From: a virus
Length of the DNA: 64,000 nucleotides
Strand: one strand, 5' to 3'
IMG/VR virus record: IMGVR_UViG_3300031957_002643
Span: 124,001-188,000 of that record
In this document: positions 2,765 to 59,952 of the stretch, one piece after another
How positions within the stretch are numbered: the stretch's first letter is position 1
How the letters are laid out: the number at the start of each line of letters is the position of its first letter
Program-made: the position numbers and the translations under genes
Notes under the pieces: model-generated
Database searches by the model: none
Told to the model about the DNA's origin: nothing
Seen by the model: only the letters and a program-made list of their open reading frames with translations

Positions 2765-2914
2765 TCTAAATTAATGACTGCCGATACCAGTCAGTTACTA
2801 CTCGCTGCTTATCAGCATGACCGCAACCAAGGTGCTGCTCGGGTCCAAGGAACGAATTCCTCTTGATCTTTAACGACCATGGGACATATGCATGGTCAGG
2901 GATATTTATATGAC

Positions 2915-2955
2915 AAAGCCCCAAGGCTTTCGCCAAGGGGCTTTTTCTGTTTCGA
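2915..2955 (-). terminator. Hairpin terminator behind the tmRNA
   Basis: AAAGCCCC...GGGGCTTT stem closing on a GAAA tetraloop, at the end of the tmRNA transcript. The plus strand has the better T tract, so it may work in both directions. Confidence 0.6.
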
Positions 2956-2956
2956 G

Positions 2957-3236
2957 GGTTGTCAGACCCCAAGTGGCTTACGCAGCGATGCGAGCCTCAA
3001 CGGCAAAATCATTATCATTTGCAGTTATTTAAGTTGTGCCTATAACGGGCCACACCCGGCAATCTCAACTTCGCTAATACACACCCATCGATCCTATTTC
3101 GCCCCCATCAGCAGCACATACTGTCGCCATGTTCGCTACGCCGGTCATGACCAAACCTTAAAGTATGTGCTGTTGGTGGAGGCGTCGGGTACTGCCCCCG
3201 AGTCTGGTCTGCTGTTCGCTCCGCATCATCAATTAC
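2957..3236 (-). ncRNA. ssrA: Circularly permuted two-piece tmRNA
   Basis: Read on the minus strand, the acceptor piece comes first, ending CGCCTCC-A-CCA (3184-3174). A spacer follows, closed by an 11-bp inverted repeat (CAGCACATACT/AGTATGTGCTG). Then comes the coding piece starting GGGGGCG at 3106. GGGGGCG pairs with CGCCTCC and gives the G3-U70 alanine identity pair. After CTTAAATAACT the resume codon GCA opens the tag ANDNDFAVEARIAA with a TAA stop (3022-2978). GGTCTG near the end pairs with CAGACC in the acceptor piece. This order is the permuted alphaproteobacterial ssrA form. It has its own sigma70 promoter and terminator. It would rescue stalled ribosomes with a phage-specified degradation tag. 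Confidence 0.9.
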
Positions 3237-3243
3237 AAATATA

Positions 3244-3272
3244 CTTATAAGGGTTACCGATTCAAATGTCAA
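3244..3272 (-). promoter_or_regulatory. Sigma70-type promoter of the tmRNA
   Basis: TTGACA (3267-3272), 17 nt, TATAAG (3244-3249), minus strand. Predicted start near 3237, just upstream of the acceptor piece. Confidence 0.8.
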
Positions 3273-3692: not shown

Positions 3693-4034
3693 TCAAAATA
3701 AATCTGGTTCTTCGTAGTCGTTTGGCACAAATACATATTCAATGCCAGAGTGAACTAGATAATAGACCCGGTAGCCATGAAGCCTACTGGTGGCATATTT
3801 CACATGCCAATCATCTTTCATTTCAAATTCAAACCGAGAATAACCCAAATCTTTTTCGATTTCTTCATAATTGTCTAAGCCCACGAATTGAATAAATTGT
3901 TCTCGTGAAATTTCATCAGACATATCTATCATGTCTGATAGACCACCATCGCTATCAACATCATGATGATTCCAGTTCACACAGTTGCTATAATATTGAA
4001 ATCGGTGTTCATTCAAAAGAATTGAGAGTTTCAT
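3693..4034 (-). CDS. Tagged small acidic protein
   Basis: 113 residues beginning MKLSILLNEH, with the (L/I)-x-E tag ending at residue 9. The ATG overlaps the TGA of the upstream 2H phosphoesterase gene (TGATG), so the two are translationally coupled. The body has an FVGLDNYEE, KDLGYS, FEFEMKDDWH region and several Tyr/Asp residues. No family recognised. I infer a head-packaged protein from the tag and the operon. Confidence 0.75.
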   Translation of the reverse strand: MKLSILLNEHRFQYYSNCVNWNHHDVDSDGGLSDMIDMSDEISREQFIQFVGLDNYEEIEKDLGYSRFEFEMKDDWHVKYATSRLHGYRVYYLVHSGIEYVFVPNDYEEPDLF

Positions 4035-4630
4035 CAAACAACTCCACCAAGATAGATGGTTGATTCTTTTTGATTGCCATCAGAATAGAACAGCGTCGAA
4101 CCGTTCAAGGCGAAATCACCAAGATTTAATTCGTCGTATTTGAAATTGAGAAGGTTTGCGATCTCTTTACCCTTGCCTTTCTTGACATAAGCAATAGTAA
4201 TATGAGCACGATAGTCTTTGAACTGGCTTTCTTGACAATCGAAATGATCCTCGATGAGTTTTTTGATTTTCGCAAGTTGTGACGTGTCTTCGTCGCTGAT
4301 TTCCAAATGAACACAATCGGCCTCGCCCTCCATCACGTTTTCGAAAAATCCAATTTCCTTAATAGCCGAAGCGCCCGTGTTTACTACAGGCTGATCGCCA
4401 AGAAGGTCTTGCATTTTCATAGGATCATATTCATTGATCCCGTATCTGACGGTGATGTGATGGAAATGCTCAACTGGCATTCCACGATCATTGTAAAGAT
4501 CGTCACTATCGATAAGTTTTGCCAGCTTTAATGCTTCTGGACATTCAACTAATAGCATAACAATACCGCTTCTTGGTGGCGATTTATTTTCTTCTAGCAG
4601 AATAGAGTTCAAAAGCTTAGCACTTACCAT
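4034..4630 (-). CDS. Tagged 2H phosphoesterase
   Basis: 198 residues. After an N-terminal tag (KLLNSILLE) the protein shows the two H-x-T signatures of 2H phosphoesterases: HHITVRYG (about residue 56) and HITIAYV (about residue 142). They are spaced as in the LigT/2',5'-RNA ligase fold. Known members open 2',3'-cyclic phosphates or cleave 2',5'- and cyclic oligonucleotides. The phage anti-CBASS protein Acb1 belongs to this superfamily. With the tag, the protein could be injected with the DNA and destroy a defence messenger early; that role is inference. It overlaps both neighbours by a few bases. Confidence 0.85.
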   Translation of the reverse strand: MVSAKLLNSILLEENKSPPRSGIVMLLVECPEALKLAKLIDSDDLYNDRGMPVEHFHHITVRYGINEYDPMKMQDLLGDQPVVNTGASAIKEIGFFENVMEGEADCVHLEISDEDTSQLAKIKKLIEDHFDCQESQFKDYRAHITIAYVKKGKGKEIANLLNFKYDELNLGDFALNGSTLFYSDGNQKESTIYLGGVV

Positions 4631-5670
4631 TCGAATTTTAGTTTTACTGAATCGTCCACAAGTTCAAGTTCCACATCAGCACAATTACATTTGGTCTGAA
4701 GGTCTTTAATAATACTGCTTTTAAGAGCGGTCGTGTTTTTCACACGAATTGCTACATAGCGTTCTGCTTCGTTAATATCAAGATCAACAGAATGAATAGA
4801 TGGTTTGTGTACATCGAAGCCCGGTTTCATGACTGGTGATAGACCAAGCTCGTTCGTCATGACATTCAATAAGAATGATGCGCGAGCCTTATAATCATCA
4901 CCTTCTTCAAACACTTCATTCAGGTGGCGTTCGATTTTATATTTTTCAGCAAAAGATGGAACTTTCGGTGCAAGAGCTTCCTTGAGTTCAACAGCACTTT
5001 TAATCAAAATTCCGCCAGCATTTTCATCCTTACGGTCACCAACGAAAACCTGACCATCCTTGATCGTGAACTCATAGATACCCTTCTTAAGTGATCTTCC
5101 AGTATGCTCTTTGAGAACATTGTGTGTCGCTCTATAAAGAATGCTTTCGGATATTGCTTTAGATTCTTCTTCACGAGCTTTCTTACGATCTGCCATGTTC
5201 TTCATCAACTCATGAACGCTTTCCTGTCCAACTAGCGTTTGAACTGAAATATCATCCTCTGGGAAATCACGTGGGCTTTCACCCATTGCCTGCTTTAGAA
5301 GAGCTTCATCATCTGCCTTCTTGCTGGTTGTGACTTGTGGGATTTTGCCATCTTCAGAAACAAAGAAATACTTCACAGGAATATGTGTGGTTTGGTTCAA
5401 TTCCATTTTGATTTGTTCATACATTCCTCGTGGCATTTGTCCGATGGTTGCTTCAACGGTGTAAAGCGTACCGAACGATAAGGACGGGAATTGCGGTGGT
5501 GCAGATTGGAATGGTTTGGGAGCTTTCGCTTCAATATCACGCAAGTCATACTTTTGGAGAGCCATTTCGATCTTCTCCATATAGTCTTCTTTGAAGATAT
5601 CGTAATATGAGAGGATGGTAATTTTGTACTCATCTTCTGTTAGGGCGAAATATTCATGAATCGTTTTCAT
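4624..5670 (-). CDS. Tagged protein downstream of the small terminase
   Basis: 348 residues from MKTIHEYFALTEDE, chosen over an upstream ATG because this start overlaps the end of the terminase gene in the usual way. MKTIHEYFALTE resembles the T4 internal-protein leader (MKTYQEFIAEA) and contains L-T-E. A proline-rich linker follows (about residues 50-70), then a charged central region and an alpha/beta C-terminus with a CNC segment. In T4 the gene after 16 is the large terminase, but this protein is not one. Function unknown; a head-internal or structural role is likely. Confidence 0.7.
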   Translation of the reverse strand: MKTIHEYFALTEDEYKITILSYYDIFKEDYMEKIEMALQKYDLRDIEAKAPKPFQSAPPQFPSLSFGTLYTVEATIGQMPRGMYEQIKMELNQTTHIPVKYFFVSEDGKIPQVTTSKKADDEALLKQAMGESPRDFPEDDISVQTLVGQESVHELMKNMADRKKAREEESKAISESILYRATHNVLKEHTGRSLKKGIYEFTIKDGQVFVGDRKDENAGGILIKSAVELKEALAPKVPSFAEKYKIERHLNEVFEEGDDYKARASFLLNVMTNELGLSPVMKPGFDVHKPSIHSVDLDINEAERYVAIRVKNTTALKSSIIKDLQTKCNCADVELELVDDSVKLKFEW

Positions 5671-6163
5671 TGTTATCCTCTGCATCGATAATGTTGTTTT
5701 GCTCTTCGAGCATTTTTAGAACTTCTTCGCGGGTTCCGTAAAAATTGTTTTGCTGTGCATTCACTATTGAATTCGGGGCACCAGTCTTCACTTTATCAAG
5801 ATTGTGCTGTTTGCTTTTATGAGCAGCATCTTGTTTCATCTTGATTGCATCTAATGCAATCTTGTAGTATTGTCCGCCAACTTCATACATTCTTGCTTGG
5901 GAACGTGGCTCATAATCTCTAGCCAATTCTGCAATGTGTTTGGCGTTTGACATTGTATGTTTGATAATGTCATCTGTTTTTTCATGACCATCATCAATGA
6001 TTGCATCTTCTTTGCTATCATCAATCGGTTGGATTTCCTGTTCAGCAGGAAGGAAGTCATTAGTAGTAGACACGACATCTTGGCCATCGATAGAGTATTC
6101 TTCGACGGACAAATTAGGCTCTGCCATGCCAAGGCTTTCTGCGATCTTCTTCATATCACTCAT
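5654..6163 (-). CDS. 16: Small terminase subunit, T4 gp16-like
   Basis: 169 residues, close to the 164 of T4 gp16. The acidic N-terminal region is followed by a long helix (about 75-125: SNAKHIAELA, PRSQARMYEVGG, YYKIALDAIK). The C-terminal block has APNSIVNAQQNNFYGTREEVLKML, counterpart of the gp16 region with QMNIQNATVFMGS. It would form the ring that recognises DNA and regulates the packaging motor. The start chosen is the ATG at 6163, which overlaps a TATAAATA box. If that box is used, translation would start at the inner ATG (MKKIAESLG) on a leaderless RNA. The large subunit is not in this window. Confidence 0.75.
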   Translation of the reverse strand: MSDMKKIAESLGMAEPNLSVEEYSIDGQDVVSTTNDFLPAEQEIQPIDDSKEDAIIDDGHEKTDDIIKHTMSNAKHIAELARDYEPRSQARMYEVGGQYYKIALDAIKMKQDAAHKSKQHNLDKVKTGAPNSIVNAQQNNFYGTREEVLKMLEEQNNIIDAEDNNENDS

Positions 6164-6170
6164 ATTTATA
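6163..6170 (-). promoter_or_regulatory. Late promoter overlapping the terminase start
   Basis: Exact TATAAATA whose last A is the A of the ATG at 6163. A divergent late box lies 9 bp away. Confidence 0.5.
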
Positions 6171-6178
6171 GTCCAAGC

Positions 6179-6186
6179 AATAAATA
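6179..6186 (+). promoter_or_regulatory. Late promoter of the lipoprotein/protease pair
   Basis: AATAAATA, divergent to the terminase late box, 17 nt before the ATG at 6204. Confidence 0.55.
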
Positions 6187-6203
6187 TAGCGTAGGAGGAA
6201 TTG

Positions 6204-6377
6204 ATGAAATTCATTCCAGTAATAATTCTTTCCCTATTCATTGCCGGATGTGCAACGGATAGAGGAATGATGCCAAGGGGCACAGAGGCGGGACCAACGC
6301 CATATGGATATATTGAAATGTGCGAAGACCCAGAAAGACGGTCTGAGATACATTGTCCAGAAGAGAACGATCAATGA
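6204..6377 (+). CDS. Small lipoprotein
   Basis: 57 residues behind a strong ribosome site (GTAGGAGG). The N-terminus MKFIPVIILSLFIAGCATD is a lipoprotein signal with lipobox IAGC, so the mature protein would be acylated and membrane-anchored. The remaining 40 residues are polar and proline-rich with two further cysteines. Its stop overlaps the start of the protease gene (ATGA). The size and lipobox fit an outer-membrane spanin-like subunit, but the neighbour is a protease rather than an inner spanin, so this stays open. Confidence 0.8.
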   Translation: MKFIPVIILSLFIAGCATDRGMMPRGTEAGPTPYGYIEMCEDPERRSEIHCPEENDQ

Positions 6378-6775
6378 GTACCAAAGAAATTTGTGATGCT
6401 GTCAAAAAGGCAGTAGACAAGGCTATTATATGGATGGCCGATGAACACACCGTTAACCAAATCGAGCACTGGCAATCCCATGCTCACAGAATTATGGAAG
6501 ACGAAAACTATCACACCGCAGATGATTGTGATGGGTTTGCACTAACTAGTGCTGAACTTTTATTTGAACGCGGAATTGATAGAGCACTAATTCGAATTGT
6601 ATATTGCGAAACATCGGAAGGTGGTCATCTGGTATGTGCCGTAGATGATCCAGACGAAGATACGACATGGGTTTTAGACAACAATGAAACCCGTGTAGTC
6701 AAATGGGGTAGTGTAAATTACAGATGGATCAGTTACATGTCGTATGACAATTTGGGTAACTGGATATCATTTTGA
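6374..6775 (+). CDS. Transglutaminase-like cysteine protease (BTLCP family)
   Basis: 133 residues. The family triad is visible: Cys in DDCDGFALTSAELL (about residue 49), His in GGHLVCAV (about 86) and Asp in WVLDNN (about 103). Bacterial transglutaminase-like cysteine proteinases are mostly found in Alphaproteobacteria, often with a signal peptide; this one has none visible. It is translationally coupled to the lipoprotein gene and shares its late promoter. A role in lysis or in processing a cell-surface protein is plausible but unproven. Confidence 0.8.
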   Translation: MSTKEICDAVKKAVDKAIIWMADEHTVNQIEHWQSHAHRIMEDENYHTADDCDGFALTSAELLFERGIDRALIRIVYCETSEGGHLVCAVDDPDEDTTWVLDNNETRVVKWGSVNYRWISYMSYDNLGNWISF

Positions 6776-7354
6776 TTTAACTTTAGATGTTCTAGATGCT
6801 GTTGGCGTCTTCTTCGCTTTTGAGGAAGGCGCTTTTGTTTTTGATTTCAATGCCGACTTTGGCTTTTTGGTTGCAGCCTTGGGCTTTTTGATGCCCTTCT
6901 TCTTAGGCTTTCGAACAGTTGGTGGTGCTGAGTTTTCAAACAAAGAACTTTCTGTCAGCGTCATGAACTTGATTCCACGACGACTACACCAAGCAGCAGC
7001 AGCCAACCATTTCGCTTTATTCACCATCAAACTTAAGGTGTCATACTGATTTTTGGCTTTTTCCTCTAATGCCTCTTTTTCCGGCTTGATTTCAATCAGT
7101 CTTGTCTCAACTGCACCCTTTGCATTTCTAAATTTAATAATAAAATCAGGAATATAGATTGATTGGGTTCCTTTGACTGGATTTCTATACGGAATTTCAA
7201 CAGGTTCAGAAGCCCATTCCAGCACGTCTTCATTTAAGTCACAATACTGTGCAAATCGGACTTCCCAGCTTGATCGAAGAACGATGGGATACGATCCTCT
7301 ATATTTCTTTGGATTTCTAGGCGTATAATTTACTGGCTTAGGTCTCTTGGCCAT
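6767..7354 (-). CDS. 4: Head completion nuclease, T4 gp4-like
   Basis: 195 residues. The N-terminal 110 residues follow T4 gp4: RSSWEVRFAQYCDLNEDVLEW, EIPYRNP, IYIPDFIIKF and LIEIKPEKE. The PDF...EIK pattern is that of a TnsA/PD-(D/E)xK nuclease core. gp4 trims or seals DNA ends after packaging and completes the head. The C-terminal 60 residues are an extra histone H1-like tail rich in Lys, Ala, Pro and Ser, which probably binds DNA. It converges on the protease gene with a 9-nt overlap. Confidence 0.85.
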   Translation of the reverse strand: MAKRPKPVNYTPRNPKKYRGSYPIVLRSSWEVRFAQYCDLNEDVLEWASEPVEIPYRNPVKGTQSIYIPDFIIKFRNAKGAVETRLIEIKPEKEALEEKAKNQYDTLSLMVNKAKWLAAAAWCSRRGIKFMTLTESSLFENSAPPTVRKPKKKGIKKPKAATKKPKSALKSKTKAPSSKAKKTPTASRTSKVKSK

Positions 7355-7356
7355 GA

Positions 7357-8559
7357 TCAGTTCTTAGGATTTAGATGTCTCGACAGCCATGATCCCGCAT
7401 TATTGATGTTCTGTGTCATAGTATCTCTGACATTCTGAATTGTTTCAGCAGAACCAAACGGATCATAGTTTTTCAGATTACCTAGTTGGCCACCGGCTTC
7501 TCCGAGCAATGGAAGAAGATCAGTGAACCTTCCCTGATCAATTGCCTGTTCAATCAATCGAATATTGGTAATGACATTTCTGATGTTCTGAATTGGTGTG
7601 CCAGAAGCAACAGTCTCGAATACGTTTCGTCTGAGATCATCCAGATTGAGTTCTCCACCTTGAATGGAATTCTGGACTGCCTGAATGAGTTCACCGGGCG
7701 TTACACCAATCCCATTCAGAAAATCATTTACACTGTCTGGAAGAATGCTATCGAATTTTTTCAATACCTTTTCATCATAATTGACACGTCTGGTATCTTC
7801 AATGACCGCTTTGTTCAGTGCAGTCTCAAACAGACCATCAGTATTGTGCAGTTCTTGACTATTATTATATTCATATGTGTCAAAATACTTGTATGCAAGA
7901 GTAATACTTATCTCCTGCATTCCAGACCCATCAGTATAGTCTAGAGTTACATTATCAACGGTCTTGATGATTGGGTCATATAGCTTGTACACTTGAACAG
8001 CATCGGGATCAGTTCCAAGATCGATCAATTTGATATGAGATAGGTATTTTGCCGTAGACACGTCATTTAGTCGAAGCCCCCAACTATATTCGGATGGGTT
8101 CTGTGAAATGCCTTCTGCTAATGATTGGTTCTGAAGGTTACTAGCAGTGCTGATATTATCGCCTTCAATATTGGCATCCGCAGTGCCATAATTTTGAGAA
8201 TGGTAGTGATCTCTGTACCCATTGATAAGACTGCGAGCTTGTGATCTGGAATCGTCGTATAACGTCAATTGGACATCAACGTATTCCTTCTTCGTCTTCA
8301 GATGATATTGAGTGTTGTATGATCTCAGTGTTTCAGTGTTGAAGGCAAATCCCGGTTTTGTGAATGATTTCACAAAGATAGAATTGCCACGGTTGAATTT
8401 TTTATCTAGGACTTCTGCGTTTTCCAGATTGCCATTGAAACCAAATTCAACAAAGAACGTAAAATTGGGGCGAGGCACCGATGGTCTCGCCTGAGAACTA
8501 CCATCGAAGCCTCGCAATTCATATGCGTAATTTTGAAATAGGTGTTTATCCGTAGTCAC
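7357..8559 (-). CDS. Tail-tube-fold baseplate protein (tube initiator candidate)
   Basis: 400 residues with a GTG start. The first 250 residues have the pattern of tube-fold proteins: FFVEFGF, VKSFTKPGFAFNTETL, a strand with VDVQLTLYDD, then YDPIIKTVDNVTLDYTDGSGMQEISITLAYKY. The last 150 residues are helical and glycine-rich. Its place directly after two gp19-like tube genes, with only 21 nt between, suggests a gp54/gp48-like protein that nucleates the tube on the baseplate. The assignment rests on pattern and context. Confidence 0.6.
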   Translation of the reverse strand: MTTDKHLFQNYAYELRGFDGSSQARPSVPRPNFTFFVEFGFNGNLENAEVLDKKFNRGNSIFVKSFTKPGFAFNTETLRSYNTQYHLKTKKEYVDVQLTLYDDSRSQARSLINGYRDHYHSQNYGTADANIEGDNISTASNLQNQSLAEGISQNPSEYSWGLRLNDVSTAKYLSHIKLIDLGTDPDAVQVYKLYDPIIKTVDNVTLDYTDGSGMQEISITLAYKYFDTYEYNNSQELHNTDGLFETALNKAVIEDTRRVNYDEKVLKKFDSILPDSVNDFLNGIGVTPGELIQAVQNSIQGGELNLDDLRRNVFETVASGTPIQNIRNVITNIRLIEQAIDQGRFTDLLPLLGEAGGQLGNLKNYDPFGSAETIQNVRDTMTQNINNAGSWLSRHLNPKN

Positions 8560-8576
8560 GTCTTATACCTCTGCCG

Positions 8577-8584
8577 GTATTTAG
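8577..8584 (-). promoter_or_regulatory. Late promoter variant CTAAATAC
   Basis: Minus-strand CTAAATAC 17 nt before the GTG at 8559; it overlaps the end of the upstream tube gene. Confidence 0.45.
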
Positions 8585-9246
8585 ACGTTACCGTTGCCAC
8601 CGATACCAGTTGAACTATTACCGAATAGACCTTCGATCTCAGGTGCGTGATCGTAATCGCCAAGCATGTTGCCGTTTTCGTCATAAACCGTGCAGTTATC
8701 GAAACGAAGGGTCAATGAAAGTTCTGTTGGATCAGCACTTTCATATTGCATCTCGGAAATTTCTTCACCTGTGATCTGACAACCGACAAGACACCACTTT
8801 TGAAGAATGTTAGGGTCTTGTGCAGACTGTCCAGCAGAAGCACCACCAGCAAGGACATCAATATCCAATTCGAACTTGTAATTCTCACCAGCACGAGATG
8901 CGGTTTGATCAAAGAAGTTGAATTGCTTAGAACGCTGCTTCTGAATCTTTTCAAGAACAGTGTTATCGATGTCTTCATGGAAACGAACAGTGATGTCATT
9001 CCACTCTGGACGGGTTTGTGCATAAACAATCGAATTGTAGCTGTATAGTGTTGCAGTTTCGAATGATGCAGTTGGTCGTGTAATAGCTTTAATCGCTCTG
9101 GTCAAATCATATGGTGCGGTATCACCCGGTGCACCAAAGTTGTTAAAGACAACACGGAAACGGTTTGTTAGAACCGGCTGTAGAACTGGTGATCTTTCAC
9201 CGTTCATTCCCGGCACACCAAAATTTTGTAATGAATTAACGCTCAT
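8581..9246 (-). CDS. 19: Tail tube protein, T4 gp19-like (major candidate)
   Basis: 221 residues. SLQNFGVPG, VLQPVLTNRFRVVFNNFG, TRPTASFET, WNDITVRFHED and a C-terminal LTLRFDN...YDENG region follow the gp19 tube family of T4-type phages. It polymerises into the inner tube under the sheath. Compared with the paralogue at 9276-9800 it is longer and richer at its C-terminus, so it is the likelier major tube subunit. Late promoter CTAAATAC (9272-9279) precedes it. Confidence 0.85.
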   Translation of the reverse strand: MSVNSLQNFGVPGMNGERSPVLQPVLTNRFRVVFNNFGAPGDTAPYDLTRAIKAITRPTASFETATLYSYNSIVYAQTRPEWNDITVRFHEDIDNTVLEKIQKQRSKQFNFFDQTASRAGENYKFELDIDVLAGGASAGQSAQDPNILQKWCLVGCQITGEEISEMQYESADPTELSLTLRFDNCTVYDENGNMLGDYDHAPEIEGLFGNSSTGIGGNGNV

Positions 9247-9823: not shown

Positions 9824-9868
9824 CTATTTACACTGATCTGATTTTGTACTATAAGTAAAAATACGCAT

Positions 9869-21046: not shown

Positions 21047-21422
21047 TAAAGCTTGGCCACATGCTATCCTTACAGACCCGCATGTACTCTTTTGAAAGCC
21101 TGAGATTAAGGCTTCTAACGATGACCTTTGGACCGCACCGAAGCCCTTGCGAGGCTTGTTAATCCGTTATCCACAAATTGGTGTCACCACTCAACTTGTA
21201 TTCACCAGTGCTGCCTTTTTTGAGGTGTGGCCTTTCACCTGTCACGCTGTGCTATTCGTCAGACTTTGATCCACCTGCCTTGCGAGCAGTTCGAGGTTGC
21301 AGCCCCTATGAACTCCGTTCTAACAATCATCTTTGGCTTGCGGCCTCCGATGAACCCTGTTCCTTACTAGGCAGGGTATTAAGCACTTTTCACACAACGC
21401 CGAACCAGTCTTTGCGTTTTAT

Positions 21423-21493
21423 CTTCTGAGAAGGGGTTGAACCTTCGACAGATCGCTTTGAATGCGATTGCTCTACCACTGAGCTATCAGTAA
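21423..21493 (-). tRNA. tRNA-like element with UCA anticodon
   Basis: Canonical D-arm (AGCTCAGTGGTAGAGC), anticodon stem ATCGC/GCGAT with loop ATTCAAA (anticodon TCA, which would read UGA) and T-arm GAAGG/CCTTC. The acceptor stem has one A-A mismatch and a terminal U-G pair, and no CCA is encoded. It sits inside the large structured RNA. Confidence 0.6.
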
Positions 21494-21965
21494 CCTACCT
21501 CGATGTGCTGGTCCTGTTGCTTCGCTACCTGTTGGTAACAAAATACAACACACCGACTGTCGTTCACCCGCTAAGGCTAATAAACCAAACTTCTGGATTA
21601 GTCATCACCACCAAAGTGATGCCGTCACCCATTGTTTTGCGAACCGCCCTTACCCGCTAAGGCTCGAACCTGTCCACTATCCGTTAACCATCACATTCAA
21701 CCGTTTAGCATGTGAATCTGCGGGTGCTAACCGCACAGGTCTCGGTGTTACCCAAACCTTCATCACCGGTCTTACTGCTTAGCGCATCCATGGCTGAATA
21801 CGCGCCCTAATAGGCTTGGCTCGGACTTGTATAGCTGAACCATTGCTGGCGCGAGTATGTAGGAATTCCCGCTTTGGGCTGGTTACCCAGCTTATTCTTA
21901 ATGGACGCTATACCGCCCAAACTCTTATTTCATTTCCCAGTGGCCGTAACCACATCGTGAAAACA

Positions 21966-57034: not shown

Positions 57035-57063
57035 TTGACAATGATTTAAATCACGTATATAAC
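57035..57063 (+). promoter_or_regulatory. Early promoter, divergent from the SPFH gene
   Basis: TTGACA (57035-57040), 17 nt, TATAAC (57058-57063). Confidence 0.8.
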
Positions 57064-59658: not shown

Positions 59659-59952
59659 GTGGGTGTGGCGAAATGGTAGACGCGACAGACTTATAGTGAT
59701 TGAGTGCTCTCTTAGAAATAGGAGATGTAGAACTGCTCAAATTCGGGGAAACCTGTAAAATGGCAATCCCGAGCCAAGCTTTCCTGAAAAGGATTGAAGG
59801 TGTAGAGACTAGACGGGCAGCATCTAAGTTGGGAAACCAATATGATGAAGGGATAGTCCAGACTACAAACCGTAATGGGCAGCGAAAGCTGTAGTTAGTA
59901 CGAAAATCTGTTTCCTTATGGAGTGGGGGTTCGAGTCCCCCCACCCACACCA
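59659..59952 (+). tRNA. tRNA-Leu (TAA) split by a group I intron
   Basis: Exon 1 is 59659-59692, exon 2 59903-59952. Joined, the anticodon arm is ACAGA-CTTAAAA-TCTGT (anticodon TAA). GTGGGTG pairs with CACCCAC; a class II variable arm is present; T-arm GGGGG/CCCCC; ACCA encoded. The intron breaks the anticodon after U34, the same position as in cyanobacterial and chloroplast trnL(UAA). Confidence 0.9.
59693..59902 (+). other. Group I intron, 210 nt
   Basis: Conserved core elements in order: P (AAATTCGGGGAAACC), Q (AATCCCGAGCCAAG), R (GTGTAGAGACTAGACGG, 59800-59816) and S (AAGGGATAGTCC, 59848-59859). S pairs with R to form P7. Exon ...ACTT pairs with intron GAGT, leaving the usual U-G at the 5' splice site, and the intron ends in G. 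It has no internal ORF. It closely resembles the trnL intron class (IC3). Confidence 0.9.

Follow-up and report, generated by a model that had tools for sequence, protein, structure and literature searches.

The minus strand carries a complete circularly permuted tmRNA gene at about 3240-2937 of the window (the whole 64-kb stretch of DNA analysed, bases 124,001-188,000 of a 335,552-bp jumbo-phage record), with its promoter at 3272-3244. It is probably a functional permuted ssrA gene from a lineage of jumbo phages, which would be transcribed and processed by the host and would rescue stalled ribosomes (probability about 0.78). The phage origin claimed in the original prediction is borne out by the surroundings of the gene in the virus record, which include tail tube, tail sheath, head-closure, endolysin, lysis and other phage genes. 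Agrobacterium phage Atu_ph07 is the nearest isolate by tail sheath (39% identity). The only pointer to the host class is the alphaproteobacterial type of the tmRNA.

Anatomy of the permuted gene

The covariance search proposed earlier, with the alphaproteobacterial tmRNA model, gave a match: RF01849 (alpha_tmRNA) aligns with 3276-2936 (minus) at 110.2 bits (E 3.3e-29, Rfam cut-off 50). RF04321 (tmRNA_permuted) aligns with 3236-2978 (minus) at 107.7 bits (E 4.9e-20, Rfam cut-off 47), and with both scores above cut-off the assignment to the alphaproteobacterial two-piece type holds. ARAGORN also calls a permuted tmRNA, with the tag ANDNDFAVEARIAA, so that two Rfam models, ARAGORN and direct reading agree on a complete gene. 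No other alpha_tmRNA match occurs in the whole 335,552-bp (335.6-kb) record. In the Rfam alignment the inter-piece helix fits the alpha model poorly in its middle part, with several non-standard pairs. The parts of the gene are as follows.

3244..3272, minus: promoter TTGACA-N17-TATAAG (direct reading)
3174..3237, minus: acceptor (tRNA-like 3') piece with encoded CCA, ending CGCCUCCACCA at 3174 (ARAGORN and Rfam; 5' end approximate)
3107..3173, minus: intervening spacer, 67 nt, predicted to be removed in processing (direct reading)
3172-3162 / 3122-3112, minus: 11-bp spacer stem with arms CAGCACAUACU/AGUAUGUGCUG (MFE -24.8 kcal/mol, z -3.2)
2978..3106, minus: coding (mRNA-like) piece, from the 5' acceptor strand through the tag stop codon (RF04321 end at 2978)
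2978..3022, minus: tag reading frame ANDNDFAVEARIAA-UAA (ARAGORN)
2910..2977, minus: conserved 3' segment (identity in relatives)
2944-2915, minus: trailer hairpin of 8 bp + 3 bp with a GAAA loop (z -5.1 against shuffles)

The order of acceptor, spacer and coding piece is that of a permuted tmRNA. The coding piece begins with GGGGGCGAAAUAGGAUCGA at 3106 (first bases GGGGGCG) and forms with CGCCUCCACCA an acceptor stem of 7 bp: G1-C72, G2-C71, G3-U70, G4-C69, G5-C68, C6-G67 and G7-C66. The G3-U70 pair in this stem, together with the CCA, corresponds to alanine identity, and both are the same in the relatives described below. The tag frame contains a resume alanine codon, a stop codon and an end of the hydrophobic-Ala-Ala type. 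The z scores of the spacer and hairpin folds were obtained against shuffled sequences; the hairpin at 2944-2915 is probably the trailer or terminator of the tmRNA gene.

Direct reading of the DNA confirmed each element named in the original prediction, i.e., the consensus promoter, the G3-U70 acceptor, the 11-bp spacer stem and the tag. The interval assigned to the gene, 2957-3272, was right in its span, but it did not name the strand, which is the minus strand, and left the trailer hairpin outside.

The order of the pieces is common to the phage gene and the alphaproteobacterial permuted tmRNA (RF01849 / RF04321), as are the GGGGGCG...CGCCUCC acceptor, the G3-U70 pair, the encoded CCA, the GAAAUAGGAUCGA segment and a tag of the ANDN type. 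By model score the viral tmRNA is far diverged from bacterial alpha ssrA, since it reaches 110 bits, whereas five bacterial genes reach 251-295. The 67-nt spacer compares with a median of 35 nt in bacterial and 87 nt in viral genes.

Conservation in related phages

The gene was found in two related viral contigs, L083 (a 79-kb record) and L084 (14.5 kb). The tail sheath of L083 is 82% identical to that of the window phage, and the gene order of window positions 4034-9246 is kept in both contigs, with protein identities of 39-84%. The promoter hexamers and their 17-nt spacing are fixed in both relatives, while the bases between them vary (12/16 and 7/15 identical to the window). The acceptor stem is unchanged across the three phages, the 84-nt part ahead of the tag is 80-83% identical, and the 3' segment shares 58/68 and 60/67 bases with its counterparts. 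The trailer hairpin covaries: four pairs are changed on both sides with pairing kept, including A-U/C-G and G-C/A-U in the outer stem and two inner pairs.

The tags themselves differ, ANDNDFAVEARIAA in the window phage against AASNDNAPSEVRIAA and AVNDNSPVEARLAA in the relatives. Nevertheless, the frame in the relatives is open and keeps the NDN core, the arginine and the final (I/L)AA, one of the tags having a net one-codon insertion. The inter-piece spacers show no sequence similarity among the three phages, yet each contains a stem (11 bp in the window, 7 and 10 bp in the relatives). Since the promoter, acceptor stem, tag frame and trailer hairpin stay conserved or covary while the inter-piece spacer diverges, selection appears to act on each working part, which is the pattern expected of a working gene. 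The spacer of the L083 gene (L083:2232-2591) also holds CGCCUCCAC and GGGGCGAAAU, near-copies of both acceptor strands; pairing in the genuine acceptor stem could face competition from them.

A permuted tmRNA is absent from Atu_ph07, SCTP-2, PA5oct and CBB, four isolated jumbo phages with the shared tail sheath, and so the wider group can do without the gene.

Expression, ribosome rescue and the tag

TTGACA-N17-TATAA sites with no more than one mismatch occur 20 times in the window, against 2.3 expected, and the tmRNA promoter is among them. The general promoter scan requires T at the last -10 position and so misses this promoter; the explicit pattern was used instead. Sites of this class at 9827, 12802, 26596, 34720 and 45100 lie ahead of tRNA clusters. 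Since several of them are directly upstream of such clusters, the tmRNA is grouped with the tRNAs among the genes that should be transcribed by host RNA polymerase. Sites of the pattern are found, e.g., at 1000, 2737, 24240, 25863, 26596, 34720 and 45100 (minus) and at 57035 and 59618 (plus). The promoters at 2737 and 25863 match each other at every one of their 28 bases, which suggests that leader regions were copied.

Expression, processing, charging, function and benefit of the tmRNA most likely take the following course. Transcription would be performed by host RNA polymerase from the consensus sigma-70-type promoter, of the same class as those ahead of the phage tRNA clusters. In the precursor the two halves of the tRNA-like domain would pair, with the spacer stem holding the ends together, and host tRNA-processing enzymes (RNases) could excise the spacer to give a two-piece tmRNA. 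Host AlaRS would read G3-U70 and charge the tmRNA with alanine. Host SmpB and EF-Tu would then bring it to ribosomes halted on mRNA that is broken or nonstop, where the tag would be added and the ribosome freed. SmpB was detected neither in the phage record nor in 22 further virus records picked because they matched tmRNA, and therefore host SmpB would have to serve. The likely benefit is that ribosomes are kept in circulation during infection, while mRNA is cleaved and host transcripts are lost. The tmRNA could form part of a phage translation kit with the 20 tRNA genes predicted in the window.

Other RNAs of the window include a GOLLD RNA at 21097-21556 (minus; RF02032, 177 bits in Rfam), in which a tRNA gene (21422-21493) is nested. 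Its anticodon, UCA, would read UGA. Recoding of UGA, suggested by this tRNA, was rejected for the window at large because TGA is still an ordinary stop, ending 29/77 long ORFs. A borderline Rfam match to a group I intron is located at 59691-59875 (plus; 50.8 bits, cut-off 50).

The missing SmpB gene also fits a decoy, i.e., a phage RNA that occupies host SmpB or stalled ribosomes and thereby blocks host trans-translation. Such a role has been proposed for the tag-less tRNA-like RNA of mycobacteriophage DS6A. Inhibition of tmRNA by a tRNA-like-only phage RNA is reported, from earlier work, in PMC4131195 and PMC11915505. A decoy, however, needs no tag frame, resume region or (I/L)AA end. Unlike the DS6A RNA, the present gene keeps a full tag frame with its stop codon, the resume region and the (I/L)AA end in all three phages although their sequences have changed, and a decoy function is accordingly considered unlikely.

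The window tag is unlike all sampled bacterial tags. It has 14 residues, most sampled bacterial tags having 12; it keeps the AANDN start when the charged alanine is counted, and its IAA ending is found in 7/115 sampled bacterial tags. None of 84,980 species genomes matched a degenerate pattern in which a tag beginning ANDNDFA follows ATAANTGC. The claim that the phage has a tag of its own therefore stands within the bacterial genomes searched. A further suggestion, that the tag could alter which protease degrades the tagged products, is not supported: the end is the ordinary IAA, the AANDN start is kept, and there is no sign of a changed protease.

The record does encode a ClpP-family protein of 213 aa (L087:1420-2061; record about 212559-213110; Pfam 138 bits). 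On reading its sequence, Ser, His and Asp are found in the usual motifs. The gene adjoins a small predicted lipoprotein-like ORF. In other jumbo phages, related proteins carry the annotation ClpP in some cases and head maturation protease in others. Neither a ClpX/ClpB-type C-terminal domain (PF10431) nor SspB was found in the phage record, so a self-contained phage tag-and-degrade system, considered as a candidate, was rejected despite the presence of ClpP. The idea of this ClpP as a dedicated tmRNA partner is weakened by the related phage CBB, which has ClpP without a permuted tmRNA.

These observations bear on the possibility of selective tagging, aimed at degrading particular host proteins or at routing products to the phage ClpP-family protease. 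A tag that differs from all sampled bacterial tags and between related phages would suit such a role, as would a ClpP-family protein with its usual motifs in the same record. The ordinary tag end, the lack of PF10431 and SspB matches in the record, the occurrence of ClpP in CBB and the other annotated use of such proteins, head maturation, speak against it, and selective tagging is as improbable as the decoy. A tag that has drifted from bacterial tags, with phage ClpP on a host unfoldase handling tagged proteins differently from host-tagged ones, could be envisaged with slightly lower probability still.

Lineage and relation to known phage tmRNAs

Ribosome rescue by an established phage gene, the preferred reading, agrees with the lineage of the tmRNA. 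In a maximum-likelihood tree of 187 tmRNAs the window gene groups with its two relatives (support 100/96), and the next nearest rows are also viral. It is placed among viral tmRNAs and inside no sampled alphaproteobacterial ssrA. An earlier, quicker tree with fewer bacteria put 52 viral rows, the window included, on one branch without bacteria inside (support 91). The deep branches are weak, being based on some 240 columns, and the bacteria are incompletely sampled; a single origin of all viral copies is therefore not claimed. Among 385 evenly drawn alphaproteobacterial genomes no close ssrA was found, the best matches being mostly 30-50-nt stretches of the tRNA-like domain. Named phages gave no near-identical tmRNA at E 1e-5, and at relaxed E the matches were only short. 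On these sequence comparisons the gene is no recent copy of any sampled host ssrA, because it has a viral placement in the tree, mostly short matches in the 385 genomes and a tag pattern absent from the bacterial genomes searched. A recently captured host ssrA, possibly taken up at an attachment site and now decaying, is thus very improbable: integration at host ssrA is common, and ssrA fragments occur in prophages (PMC9004378), but the present gene is complete, deep inside the 335-kb record, conserved in place in relatives and distant from the sampled bacterial ssrA, with no integrase domain by Pfam or PHROGs among the scanned nearby ORFs.

Phage tmRNAs, permuted ones included, are already published (PMC9004378, PMC11915505). 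They have long been listed (PMC4131195), and a tmRNA database includes a permuted model as well as 79 unique sequences from phages (PMC11915505). A 2022 paper counts 402 tmRNA-bearing phages and 53 structures of the two-piece form, almost all of them aquatic (PMC9004378). Among these marine phages the same paper describes Methylophilales phage Melnitz, a myophage of 141.5 kb with a two-piece tmRNA. The window phage resembles Melnitz in having a complete permuted tmRNA; the Melnitz gene is linked to a glutamine riboswitch (PMC9004378), whereas Rfam matched no riboswitch family alongside the window gene. Sinorhizobium jumbo phage AP-J-162, related to Atu_ph07, is reported to have one tmRNA and many tRNAs (PMC11242549). 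It thus resembles the window phage in being a tmRNA-bearing jumbo phage with a link to Atu_ph07.

Permuted alphaproteobacterial-type tmRNAs were also found, by DNA similarity and ARAGORN, in phages RcXuper, vB_RpoS-V10 and Cp1R7A-A1. Their tags are ANENFAPMEMRLAA, ANINNAPMEMAIAA and VAANDNHFEARALAA, and in the tree they are not close to the window gene. The public records of these three phages (OP186293.1, MT188704.1 and MH015255.1; L088-L090) annotate no tmRNA where ARAGORN predicts one.

The new element is that three related phages conserve the gene in place while their tags diverge. A permuted tmRNA can thus be inherited stably within a jumbo-phage lineage and be more than a transient copy of host ssrA; selection holds it in place as the tag changes. 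The role of ribosome rescue in phages becomes testable, since the three relatives have the promoter, acceptor and trailer in common but not the tag.
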